Source: Spirochaetaceae bacterium
GTDB taxonomy: Bacteria > Spirochaetota > Spirochaetia > Treponematales > Treponemataceae
Direction: 5' to 3'
Length of the DNA stretch: 64,000 nt
NCBI GenBank assembly: GCA_017936665.1
Contig: JAGBFB010000029.1
Span: forward strand, 1-64,000
Shown here: one piece after another, positions 7,197 through 27,527 of the stretch
Layout: every line of letters starts with the position of its first letter
Position numbering within the stretch: position 1 is the first letter of the stretch
Made by a program: the position numbers and the translations under genes
Notes under the pieces: generated by a model
What the model was told of the DNA's origin: nothing
What the model saw: the letters and a program-made list of their open reading frames with translations, nothing else
The model's database searches: none

Positions 7197-8126
7197 ATGG
7201 ATTTTTCTAAATTTTCTAAATCAAATTTTTTTGGTTTCTTTTTGGCTTGTTTTACAATCTTTGTTTGGGGAATTACTTTTGTTTGCACAAAGCATCTTTT
7301 AGTTTATTTTTCTGCTCTAGAAATTTTGTTTATTCGATTTATTTTAGCCTATTGTTTTTTGTTTATTTTGAAACCTCATACATTAAAACTCTCTCTAAAA
7401 GAAAACTTTTTGGTGGCTTTAGCAGGATTGACTGGCGTAACTTTATATCAGTTTACAGAAAATCTTGCTTTGGATTTTACAACTGCTTCAAATGTAAGTA
7501 TTATTGTTGGAATTTGTCCGATTTTTACAGCTTTAACAAGTCAGATTTTTCTAAAAGAAAAGCATTTATCTTTTAATTTCTGTCTTGGATTTTGTCTTGC
7601 CTTCGTGGGTGTTGTTCTTGTAAGTTTTAATGGAAAAATCAATTTTAATTTAAGTCCCAAAGGTGATATTTTGGCTTTGATTTCTGCAATTTGTTGGGGA
7701 TTTTATTCTTTGTTTTTAACGATGATAAATAAAAAAGGCTACACTACAATTTTGATTACACGAAAAATCTTTTTTTACGCAATTTTGTTTATGATTCCAT
7801 TGATGATTTGTGGCGTTTTTGCAGAAAATCCTAAATCTACAGCCTATGTTGAACTTTCTTCTATTCTGAATGCAGAACGTTTTTCTTCTATATTGAATTG
7901 GATTTTACTTTGCTTTTTAGGAATTATTGCTAGTGGATTTTGTTTTGTAGCATGGAATAAAGCTTGTAATATTTTAGGAACAGTAAAAATTTCTACAGGT
8001 CTTTATTTAATCCCCGTAATTACAATTTTCTTTGCCGCAATTTTCTTAAACGAAAAAATTACTTTCATGGGAACCATTGGTTCAGCCCTAACGATTATAG
8101 GTTTATTTGTTTCTAGTAAAAAATAG
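7197..8126 (+). CDS. EamA/DMT-family transporter
   Basis: About 309 residues with ten hydrophobic segments arranged as two EamA repeats, the pattern of drug/metabolite transporters; N-terminal WGITFVCTKHLL and the second-half ICWGFYSLFLTM are typical. The ATG at 7197 is preferred over an in-frame TTG five codons upstream, because a TATATT box lies six bases before it and no ribosome binding site is present. The last 276 bp are duplicated at 23988-24263, on the far side of the accessory island, so the gene marks the left island boundary. The substrate is unknown. Confidence 0.88.
   Translation: MDFSKFSKSNFFGFFLACFTIFVWGITFVCTKHLLVYFSALEILFIRFILAYCFLFILKPHTLKLSLKENFLVALAGLTGVTLYQFTENLALDFTTASNVSIIVGICPIFTALTSQIFLKEKHLSFNFCLGFCLAFVGVVLVSFNGKINFNLSPKGDILALISAICWGFYSLFLTMINKKGYTTILITRKIFFYAILFMIPLMICGVFAENPKSTAYVELSSILNAERFSSILNWILLCFLGIIASGFCFVAWNKACNILGTVKISTGLYLIPVITIFFAAIFLNEKITFMGTIGSALTIIGLFVSSKK
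7851..8126 (+). repeat. Island-flanking direct repeat, left copy
   Basis: The 3'-terminal 276 bp of the EamA gene, including its stop codon. The same 276 bp recur at 23988-24263 with six differences, all transitions, and no gaps. Similarity starts abruptly at GAACTTTC and stops right after the TAG. The right copy has no 5' part. This geometry marks the segment 8127-23987 as inserted DNA. Confidence 0.93.
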
Positions 8127-8208
8127 CGAAAAAAAATATGGTGTGTAAATTGAGTATTTAATAAGATTCAACAGAAATAGTCACCTTTCGTTCTTCATTC
8201 ATACCCAT

Positions 8209-23987: not shown

Positions 23988-24263
23988 GAACTTTCTTCTA
24001 TTCTGAATGCAGAACGTTTTTCTTCTATATTGAATTGGATTTTACTTTGCTTTTTAGGAATTATTGCTAGCGGATTTTGTTTTGTGGCATGGAATAAAGC
24101 TTGTAATATTTTAGGAACAGTAAAAATTTCTACAGGTCTTTATTTAATTCCCGTAATTACGATTTTCTTTGCCGCAATTTTCTTAAACGAAAAAATTACT
24201 CTCATGGGAGCCATTGGTTCAGCCCTAACGATTATAGGTTTATTTGTTTCTAGTAAAAAATAG
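23988..24263 (+). pseudogene. Truncated EamA gene copy, right island-flanking repeat
   Basis: The last 276 bp of an EamA transporter gene, without its 5' two thirds. It differs from 7851-8126 at six sites, all transitions; four are silent and two change amino acids (Phe to Leu, Thr to Ala). An ATG inside could start a 77-residue peptide covering only about two transmembrane segments, which is unlikely to work. The left copy belongs to an intact gene, so this one is the leftover of the insertion event that placed the island here. Confidence 0.92.
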
Positions 24264-24339
24264 AGAAATTAAAAATTTTCATGTTAAAAATTCCCTTGAC
24301 ATATATATATATAATGACTTAATTTTTTTGGAGGTTTTT

Positions 24340-24864
24340 ATGAAAAGATTTTTATTTATTTTATTTTTGGTTTTGACTGTATTTGGTGGAGTTGTTGCAC
24401 AAGAAAGCAAAAGCGAAAATACAGATGATGTTTTAATTAAAATAAATGTCCCAGAAACAGATAAGAAAGTAAAAGTATATGTTTCTAAACACCCAAATTT
24501 TATGGGCAAAAAACTTATTGCTGAAGGAACTACCGAAACTTATGTTGATAACTCATATCAGTATATCGGTTTTAGTAAATTTGCTGTTCAGCCATTAGTT
24601 TTAAATGATAAAGTTTTAGAGTATGATGTAGAATTAGGAAATCCTGTAAAAAATGGACTAGGAATTACATCTGCATTTATTGGTGCAATTAGTGCTGGAC
24701 TTGGTTTGGGATTTTTGCTAAGTGCTGATATGTATAGCGAACAAGAATTCAAAAAAATGTTACCACTTGGAATTAGTATGATTGGTGTTGGTGCAACAGG
24801 CGTTACCGTTGGTTTAATTCTAAACAGCAAACACAAACCAAAATTAATAAGAGTAAATAATTAA
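24340..24864 (+). CDS. Small exported/membrane protein, unknown function
   Basis: A 174-residue protein with a clear signal peptide (KRFLFILFLVLTVFGGVVAQ), a ~75-residue hydrophilic region rich in Lys/Val/Thr, and two Gly-rich hydrophobic segments near the C-terminus (GLGITSAFIGAISAGLGLG and ISMIGVGATGVTVGL). The ATG at 24340 has an ideal GGAGG eight bases upstream; an open frame further 5' runs into the EamA remnant and is not used. I do not recognise the family. It is the first chromosomal gene to the right of the island. Confidence 0.65.
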   Translation: MKRFLFILFLVLTVFGGVVAQESKSENTDDVLIKINVPETDKKVKVYVSKHPNFMGKKLIAEGTTETYVDNSYQYIGFSKFAVQPLVLNDKVLEYDVELGNPVKNGLGITSAFIGAISAGLGLGFLLSADMYSEQEFKKMLPLGISMIGVGATGVTVGLILNSKHKPKLIRVNN

Positions 24865-24884: not shown

Positions 24885-25046
24885 TACCCAAACGCAAGAA
24901 GTTTGTAAAAATTATTTAAATCAAAAATTCGGTAACTAAAAAAATAAACTGTATTGCGACCGTCTAGCGAAGCGTCAAGGGAGCAATACAGTTTATTTTT
25001 TTAGAATAACATATTTTTCTGTTACTAATTGTTTTTGCAAAATTTT
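24885..25046. repeat. Direct repeat with 22-bp hairpin, copy A
   Basis: About 162 bp that recur at 25975-26139 with only a few differences. The core is a perfect 22-bp inverted repeat (CTAAAAAAATAAACTGTATTGC at 24936-24957 in shortened reading CTAAAAAAAT...TATTGC, with its complement at 24983-25004) around a GC-richer 25-base loop containing GTCTAGCGAAGCGTC. A second small hairpin, AAACTTCT (24878-24885) with AGAAGTTT (24897-24904), overlaps the left edge. Copies A and B bracket the nuclease gene. Confidence 0.85.
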
Positions 25047-25143
25047 TTTCAATTTTACATCATTTTTTTCAATTTTACGCCTATTAATATATGTGTGTAA
25101 AAAATATTTTTTTTATGCAGAATTTTATTTTTAGGTGGTAACT

Positions 25144-25950
25144 TTGAAACTAAAACCTATCGAAGAACTCACTTTTACAGACGATTTTATGTTTGGAAGA
25201 ATTATGCAAAACGCAGAAATTTGCCAAGGATTTCTTGAAAGAATGCTGGAAATAAAAATTGAGCGAATTGAATATCCTGAATTACAAAAATCAATTTCAC
25301 CGCATTATCAGTCAAAAGGAATTAGACTTGATGTCTACGTGCAAGATTCAAATCGGGTTTTCGACATTGAAATTCAAAATTCCCTAGATGAAAATCTACC
25401 AAAACGAACTCGCTATTACCAATCCATGATGGACATAGACCTTTTACTGAAAGGCAAAAATTACACCGAACTAAAAGAAAGTTTTGTAATTTTCATTTGC
25501 AAAAAAGATTTTTTCGGCTTTAATTTGCCTTGCTACAGTTTTTCAAATACTTGCAAAGAAAAACCAGATTTATTTTTACAAGATGAAGCCCATAAAATCA
25601 TTTTTAATGCCTCTGCTTTTAAGCAAGAAAAAAATGTAGAAAAAAAATCGATTCTGGAGTATATTAATGATAGGACTTCTACAACTGATTTTACAAACAA
25701 ACTTAATTCCTTGGTAGAAAAAACTAAACTTAGCGAAATTTTTAGAGGTGATTACATGGCTTGGGGACTTGCAGAATTTGACGCAGAACGTCGCGGTTAC
25801 AAAGAAGGCGTAGCAGTTGGTATTTCTCAAGGTTCTCAACAAAAAGCCATCGAAGCTGCTAAAAAGCTCCTAAACTTTGGCGATTCAATCGAAAAAGTTG
25901 CACAAGTTACAGAACTATCCGTTGACGAAGTAAAAGCTCTCGCAGAATAA
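25144..25950 (+). CDS. Rpn/PD-(D/E)XK nuclease-family transposase-like protein
   Basis: About 268 residues of the family of putative transposases first named from Treponema denticola (related to Rpn recombination-promoting nucleases). The N-terminus LKPIEELTFTDDFMFGRIMQN, the nuclease core with Asp in GIRLDVYVQDS and Glu-x-Gln in VFDIEIQNS, then LPKRTRYYQSMMD, and the C-terminal GxxxGxxxGxxxx repeat (EGVAVGISQGSQQKA) with a terminal LSVDEVKALAE are all typical. The TTG at 25144 is preferred because GGTGG precedes it; a GTG at 25135 is the alternative. Direct repeats on both sides suggest a mobile unit. The catalytic residues look intact. Confidence 0.9.
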   Translation: MKLKPIEELTFTDDFMFGRIMQNAEICQGFLERMLEIKIERIEYPELQKSISPHYQSKGIRLDVYVQDSNRVFDIEIQNSLDENLPKRTRYYQSMMDIDLLLKGKNYTELKESFVIFICKKDFFGFNLPCYSFSNTCKEKPDLFLQDEAHKIIFNASAFKQEKNVEKKSILEYINDRTSTTDFTNKLNSLVEKTKLSEIFRGDYMAWGLAEFDAERRGYKEGVAVGISQGSQQKAIEAAKKLLNFGDSIEKVAQVTELSVDEVKALAE

Positions 25951-25974
25951 AATTTGAACAAAACATATTCCCCA

Positions 25975-26139
25975 TACCCCAACGCAAGAAGTTTGTAAAA
26001 ATTATTTAAATCAAAAAATTCGGTAACTAAAAAAAATAAACTGTAGTGCGACCGTCTAGCGAAGCGTCAAGGGAGCAATACAGTTTATTTTTTTTAGAAT
26101 AACATATTTTTCTGATACTAATTGTTTTTGCAAAATTTT
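25975..26139. repeat. Direct repeat with hairpin, copy B
   Basis: Second copy of the 24885-25046 repeat, starting 24 bases after the nuclease stop and ending just before the mnmE stop. The hairpin stem has one mismatch (CTGTAGTGC against GCAATACAG), while the loop is unchanged. It may also act as a terminator between the convergent nuclease and mnmE genes. Confidence 0.85.
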
Positions 26140-26147
26140 GAAGAGAC

Positions 26148-27527
26148 CTATTTTCCTACACAAAAGTTTGCAAATATGTTTCCAAGAATATCTTCTGGAG
26201 TTGTTTCCCCGGTAATTTCAGAAAGGAAAGATAAGGCATCTTCTAAATCTTGAACAACTGCGTCCATTGTAAAATCTGCACAAGAAACTTCCAAAGCGTG
26301 ATTTACAGAATCTAAGGCCTCATCTACGGCTTGTTTTTGTCGTTCTGAGCCAAGACCTGCTTGTGTTCTATCTGATTTTGTAGATTGTACCAAAGTACCT
26401 TTTACAGTTTTGATTAAATCAGAAATTCCTAAACCAGTTTTTGCACTAATTTTTACAGAATTTTCATCTAGTTTAGAATTATTTTGTAAAACATCAATTT
26501 TATTCAAAACTTTAATTACAGGAATTTTTCCGTTAAAAGAATTGATAAAATCAATATCATCTTTTGATTCTTCTTTTGTTGAATCTACCAAATAAATGAT
26601 GATATCAGCATCTTGTGTTAAATCTTTTGTCATTTCAACACCACGTTGTTCAATAACATCATCTGTGATGCGAAGTCCAGCAGTATCAAAAAGACGAGCA
26701 GGAATTCCGTCAAAAGAAACCCAACTTTCAATCCAATCCCGAGTTGTACCTTCAATGTCAGAAACGATGGCTCTTTCTTCTTTCAAAAGTGCGTTAAACA
26801 AACTTGATTTTCCTGCGTTAGTCTTTCCACAAAGGATGATTCTTGCTCCATCTTGATAAAGTTTTTGACTTTGCCAACTTTTTGAAAGTTCAGTTAAACT
26901 GTTTTTTGCTTGTAAAAGTAGGGTAGAATCAAAACTGTCAGAAAAATTTTCTTCATCTTCTGGATATTCAAGTTCAACTTCAATAGAAGCAATTGTAGAA
27001 ATAATTTTTTCTTTTATAGACTGAATTTCGTTATACAAATTTCCAGAAAGTCGGCCTGCTGCTAAGGAACGGCTTGCATCAGTTTTAGAATCGATAATTT
27101 CCTTTACGGCTTCCGATTTTGTTAAATCAGTTTTTCCATTGATAAAGGCTCTAAAAGTAAATTCTCCAGGAAGGGCCGTTCTAAATCCATTTTTTAGCAA
27201 AAGACTAAATATTGCTGTAACTGGCGAAATTCCACCATGACAACTGATTTCTGCCATTTCTTCCCCAGTGTAACTTTTTGGAGCTCTAAAAACGCTAACT
27301 AAAACTTCATCAATTTTCTGTTTTTGGTCAGGATTTACAGAATCAACAATCCAGCCATAAACAATAGTGTTTCCTTCGGCTTGAGTTAAAGCTTTGGGGC
27401 GAGAAAAAACTTTTGAAAGAAGTTCGATACAATTTTTTCCAGAAATACGAATCAAGGCTAGGGCACTGGGAGCCAAGGCTGTTGCGATGGCAGCGATTGG
27501 CTCTTCTGGTGTATATGAATTTGACAT
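26148..27527 (-). CDS. mnmE: tRNA modification GTPase MnmE
   Basis: MnmE (TrmE), which with MnmG installs cmnm5 or nm5 groups on U34 of tRNAs. It has the N-terminal folate-binding domain (SYTPEEPIAAIATALAPSALALIRISG), a G domain with GKTNAGKSSLFN, EGTTRD, DTAGLR and NKID, and ends in the invariant CxGK tail (FCVGK), whose cysteine is catalytic. At 459 residues it is standard length. The ATG directly follows the stop of the upstream exported-protein gene, so the two are co-transcribed. mnmG is not in the window. Confidence 0.97.
   Translation of the reverse strand: MSNSYTPEEPIAAIATALAPSALALIRISGKNCIELLSKVFSRPKALTQAEGNTIVYGWIVDSVNPDQKQKIDEVLVSVFRAPKSYTGEEMAEISCHGGISPVTAIFSLLLKNGFRTALPGEFTFRAFINGKTDLTKSEAVKEIIDSKTDASRSLAAGRLSGNLYNEIQSIKEKIISTIASIEVELEYPEDEENFSDSFDSTLLLQAKNSLTELSKSWQSQKLYQDGARIILCGKTNAGKSSLFNALLKEERAIVSDIEGTTRDWIESWVSFDGIPARLFDTAGLRITDDVIEQRGVEMTKDLTQDADIIIYLVDSTKEESKDDIDFINSFNGKIPVIKVLNKIDVLQNNSKLDENSVKISAKTGLGISDLIKTVKGTLVQSTKSDRTQAGLGSERQKQAVDEALDSVNHALEVSCADFTMDAVVQDLEDALSFLSEITGETTPEDILGNIFANFCVGK

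Follow-up and report, generated by a model that had tools for sequence, protein, structure and literature searches.

In a 64,000-nucleotide window of a Spirochaetaceae bacterium draft genome (contig JAGBFB010000029.1, positions 1 to 64,000), a gene of the rpn family, encoding a PD-(D/E)XK nuclease, lies between two directly repeated copies, A and B, of a palindromic sequence. The explanation that we favour, with moderate confidence, is that this palindrome is a bidirectional terminator resembling a miniature inverted-repeat transposable element (MITE), which may hitchhike with the exchangeable tails of rpn genes and supply homology for both rpn loss and tail swapping. The rpn genes, referred to as "recombination-promoting nucleases" or putative transposases, are multi-copy in treponemes.

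A first-pass annotation of this DNA had described direct repeats with strong hairpins that enclose the nuclease gene alone, and comparison of the two copies bore this description out. The identity between copies A and B is 96% with gaps included and 98% when gapped columns are left out, and the rpn open reading frame (ORF) is the sole gene between them. The stem arms of copy A (24936-24957 and 24983-25004) pair over 22 bp with 100% complementarity, and those of copy B (26027-26049 and 26075-26097) over 23 bp with 96% complementarity. RNA folding gave z scores of -4.8 (A) and -4.7 (B) for 150-nt stretches and of -8.7 for the core of A, with none of the shuffled sequences as stable. The pattern with the 25-nt loop matched twice in the window against zero matches expected, and no known RNA family was matched there in Rfam. 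The palindrome is not confined to the core stem, the whole unit of about 165 bp being an imperfect palindrome; copy B reaches rightward to 26147, and about 10 nt at its right end are missing from A.

The genome, covered as 2.58 Mb in 43 contigs, was searched with end motifs and by similarity; the number of loci is a hand count in which nested and neighbouring pieces were merged. Palindromes of about 165-250 bp with common ends (left end approximately CTTTCTACC(A/C)GAACGAAAGAAGTTTGCAAAA, right end approximately TTTTGCAAAATTCTGTAGAGTA) and central hairpins of at least three kinds were found at about 29 loci, and the type present in the window, type 1, accounts for about eleven long copies plus fragments. 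Copies A and B and the one that precedes the rpn gene on contig C41 are the most alike (95-98%), all others being at most 91% identical to A or B. Nested and half copies occur, and at several loci a left half is broken near the apex and is followed by a new element. Two or three repeat loci appear to be split by IS3-type insertions with ends TGAACTGCACCC...TTGGACA (C42:17030, C15:130 and C41:103050). One stem pair shifts jointly from T-A to C-G across copies, which fits selection for pairing, a single pair being thin evidence. The central sequence was absent from every other species genome, viral contig, plasmid and phage searched, and no full copy of the repeat was found in 39 relatives. Weak matches in two relatives lie inside genes and were set aside as chance, and a phage or plasmid origin was rejected on the same viral contig, plasmid and phage searches. 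Literature searches on treponeme MITEs and on palindromes that target stop codons turned up no described precedent for this repeat. The family is best read, from its sequence features, as lineage-specific and MITE-like: it is short, non-coding, multi-copy and bounded by inverted ends, and it shares with MITEs and small palindromes of the RUP, Correia and ERIC/RU type its dispersed intergenic placement and its restriction to one lineage, but it differs from them in its preference for stop codons and its enrichment at rpn genes.

The position of the repeats was read from ORF calls, and contig ends leave one flank of many rpn genes unreadable. About 19 right ends have a neighbour that could be read; eight of these lie 0-5 nt from the stop codon of the host gene, including that of mnmE at copy B and that of a glgX-like gene on C21, and three more are entered by coding sequence. 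Folding predicts a stable hairpin followed by a U-tract, the form of an intrinsic terminator, and the repeat would thus double as a transcription terminator in both directions. Other copies are found near gene starts or between divergent genes (C11:57463 and C5:21982; also near a gene start, C12:104884). On C23, a TrmH-like coding sequence ends inside a repeat, which gives its last residues, LYRISQ (L059 7595-7617). At C1:23142, a palindromic repeat follows a gene whose product ends in GFGLADQIY(M/L)EL; in G016, a relative from the same family, a gene with this ending (1772531) also precedes a palindromic repeat, of unrelated sequence.

The first-pass annotation had suggested looking for the same hairpin beside other copies of the nuclease, and such copies were found: of the 18 rpn stop codons that could be read, about 9 have the left end of a repeat, in the same orientation, 6-25 nt past the stop. 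Repeats also stand upstream in 3 of 13 readable rpn 5' regions. Altogether, about 11 of the 29 loci abut an rpn gene, and about 60% lie away from any rpn gene. The repeats stand at rpn genes in this genome far more often than chance would give; with an expectation that 1.7% of intergenic regions flank rpn, the binomial tail is about 1e-12, which is an order of magnitude only because the 1.7% is a rough, unmeasured estimate and duplicated loci are not independent. In the end-motif searches, a left and a right end enclosed genes in only two intervals, in the window and on C41, and both carry rpn. A second palindrome, GTCATCCTGAACTTGATTCAGGATC, is located upstream of rpn on C5:1, C13, C17 and C42 (variants on C27 and C31), in the position that repeat A occupies in the window.

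In G016, which has 58 rpn matches, an unrelated palindrome (TTAGGGGAGG...CCTCCCCTAA) was found, and about 8 of the 20 matches to its end motif lie at or inside rpn genes, several of which are copies of a single split rpn type. In the other relatives compared, rpn 3' flanks had no common palindrome. The link between palindromic repeats and rpn is therefore recurrent but not universal. At C1:64191, 2070875, 2328851 and 2431136 of G016, a palindrome separates the N-terminal from the C-terminal part of a split rpn type, in at least four similar copies.

To compare rpn genes with one another, each was divided into the 120 nt before the QQ motif (body), the tail after this motif, and the 3' flank. 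The genes on C21, C2, C20, C1 and C5:24890 have bodies that are 95-98% identical and tails that are only 61-75% identical. The reverse was seen in two pairs: C37 and C21 have tails that are 93% identical and 3' flanks that are 92% identical, with bodies at 50%; in C34 and C2, the tails are 98% identical, the 3' flank is partly shared (70%) and the bodies are at 48%. C29 and C20 have tails 92% identical and no common 3' flank. Similar bodies with divergent tails, together with these reverse cases, showed at the level of aligned sequence that the last approximately 35 residues have been swapped between unrelated rpn bodies at a fixed boundary, and that in two pairs, C37/C21 and C34/C2, the downstream palindrome was transferred along with the tail. 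Fourteen contigs (C1, C2, C5, C10, C11, C20, C21, C27, C29, C31, C34, C37, C39 and C42) end inside rpn genes; the assembly thus appears to break at near-identical rpn bodies, and the number of rpn copies in it to be an underestimate.

According to the favoured explanation, A and B would be two copies of a lineage-specific, MITE-like repeat that settles mostly right behind stop codons. The repeats beside rpn genes would have spread with them, mainly as pieces of tail plus downstream palindrome that move between paralogues by homologous recombination, for which conserved rpn sequence around QQKAIETAKN may serve as the left homology arm and the repeat as the right arm. The direct pair A/B would make the rpn gene excisable by recombination, leaving one repeat behind, and the gene itself would be an Rpn toxin-antitoxin (RpnL with an internal RpnS) with a putative role in defence. 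This gives the hairpins a falsifiable reading, in terms of termination and homology and not of nuclease recognition, and the exchange of tails at a fixed boundary, sometimes with defined 3' DNA, means that strain comparisons could test how an anti-phage toxin-antitoxin family diversifies.

Several observations weigh against this explanation. A terminator pattern scan did not flag these hairpins, its loop limit being 3-8 nt versus the 25-nt loops of these repeats. About half of the rpn genes in this genome have no palindrome at the stop codon, and the repeat is therefore not needed for rpn spread. Unlike in known MITE systems, no transposase was found between matching ends in the end-motif search of the draft assembly, and no target-site duplication was seen when the flanks were read in this one genome, so that the mobility of the repeat itself is something we infer. 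When relatives were compared for an empty site, mnmE was found, but its neighbourhood is not conserved, and the mnmE site within the same genus is not syntenic.

It is possible, though unlikely, that the repeats are ordinary terminators that were never mobile, each rpn gene keeping its terminator and gene duplications copying both. The hairpin with its A- and T-tracts and the 3'-end position agree with this, but a terminator has no need of the outer ends of about 60 nt that dispersed copies have in common, several copies stand between divergent genes or at gene starts (such as C11:57463 and C5:21982), and nested and half copies occur.

Two proposals that give the nuclease a more active part are less probable still. 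In one, Rpn would recognise or mobilise the palindrome, and solo repeats would be non-autonomous derivatives of an rpn-carrying element, as repetitive extragenic palindromes (REPs) are of REP-associated tyrosine transposases (RAYTs). The rpn genes in the only two end-bounded intervals that carry genes, the over-representation at rpn, the G016 parallel with its unrelated palindrome and the confinement of the repeat to one lineage are all in its favour, but the repeat is missing beside many rpn genes and from most other genomes. Furthermore, RpnA of E. coli, which belongs to a different and distant Pfam family from the window protein, is a non-specific endonuclease that does not prefer an extruded cruciform (PMC5350276), and a study of Rpn proteins, in which no inverted repeats or target duplications were reported to flank rpn genes, argues against their being transposases (PMC10327210). 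Of the relation between hairpin and nuclease put forward in the first-pass annotation, the linkage was supported, being beyond chance here and recurring in G016, and recognition of the hairpin by the nuclease was not. A cognate hairpin was rejected as the principal explanation because most copies are found without rpn, beside ordinary genes, which is the finding that the annotation itself had named as contrary to its proposal, and because the rpn genes of most relatives have no common palindrome. REP/REPIN systems with RAYT likewise show palindromes adjoining a nuclease-type gene and solo copies elsewhere, but Rpn is a PD-(D/E)XK and not a Y1 HUH enzyme, and the one Y1 gene found in this genome lies in an unrelated IS200-like unit with unrelated flanks.

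The other proposal, to which we give similarly little credence, is that tail and palindrome together form a true mobile cassette of a dedicated system that shuffles the antitoxin or recognition tails of Rpn defence genes in treponemes, possibly through Rpn nuclease activity at the palindrome, each lineage having its own palindrome. The layout of rpn tail plus palindrome resembles an integron cassette with its attC site. Polymorphic toxins such as CdiA-CT and Rhs also combine a conserved body with an exchangeable C-terminal module; unlike in those toxins, the module here is about 35 residues long, ends an intracellular nuclease/antitoxin and is followed by a palindrome.

The composite mobile unit that the first-pass annotation had also offered would be a transposon in which A, rpn and B moved together, bounded by the two repeats; this is improbable. 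The three closest copies are indeed A, B and the C41 upstream repeat, and C41 carries the same rpn body subfamily, but no second A-rpn-B copy was found. On C41, the nearest case, a type-1 repeat is paired with a downstream repeat of another central type; target duplications were not seen, and the right end of A is incomplete.

The features of the locus are listed below.

Features of the rpn locus and its neighbours (positions in the 64,000-nt window)
Feature	Coordinates	Strand	Remarks
Small lipoprotein/membrane gene	24340..24864	+	ends 20 nt upstream of repeat A
Repeat copy A, type 1	24885..25046	+	left end intact; right end lacks last ~10 nt at junction with rpn upstream region
Copy A hairpin	24936..25004	+	22-bp stem and 25-nt loop; arms with A- and T-tracts, resembling a terminator in either direction
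rpn upstream (promoter) region	25047..25143	+	common to two other rpn copies; homology ends near left edge
rpn gene, Rpn-family PD-(D/E)XK nuclease	25144..25950	+	TTG start aligned with ATG of paralogues; start in ORF list, GTG 25135
Candidate internal RpnS-like antitoxin start, in frame, 64 aa	25756..25950	+	AGAGGTGA at 25744-25751 upstream; stand-alone paralogues
Exchangeable tail module, QQKAIE... to stop	25840..25950	+	boundary approximate
Repeat copy B, type 1	25975..26147	+	both ends intact; right end touches mnmE stop codon
Copy B hairpin	26027..26097	+	23-bp stem, 25-nt loop
mnmE, convergent host gene	26148..27527	-	stop abuts repeat B

The window protein matched the TIGR01784 (T_den_put_tspse) profile with 131 bits (cut-off 52.1) and PF12784 with 54.3 (cut-off 27.4); PADLOC gave no match, and only a short match to the tail was found among the solved structures searched. 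RpnL/RpnS systems are genes within genes with variable tails and four-residue repeats, for which stand-alone tandem tail genes are also reported (PMC10327210). The window gene is probably such a toxin-antitoxin, as predicted from the family match, its GISQ-type four-residue repeats and an in-frame ATG at 25756 that follows a ribosome-binding site (AGAGGTGA) and would start a C-terminal protein of 64 residues. Variable tails, stand-alone tail genes in tandem and multiple copies are further likenesses to the Rpn/COG5464 systems, from which the genes described here differ in that a palindromic repeat adjoins about half of the rpn 3' ends and in that tails are exchanged, in two cases together with the palindrome. 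Tandem stand-alone copies of the rpn C-terminal part were found on C41 (L056 3518-4294) and C5 (L064 3104-3584), each copy having an ATG and a ribosome-binding site of its own, which fits separate RpnS genes.

Elsewhere in the window, the 3' end of an EamA/DMT transporter gene is directly repeated (289 bp, 97%; 7851-8139 and 23988-24276), and the two copies bracket about 15.8 kb with ORFs named, from sequence alone, as phosphopantetheinyl transferase, radical SAM, HMGL-like and ABC-transporter proteins, and this stretch looks like an inserted biosynthetic island.
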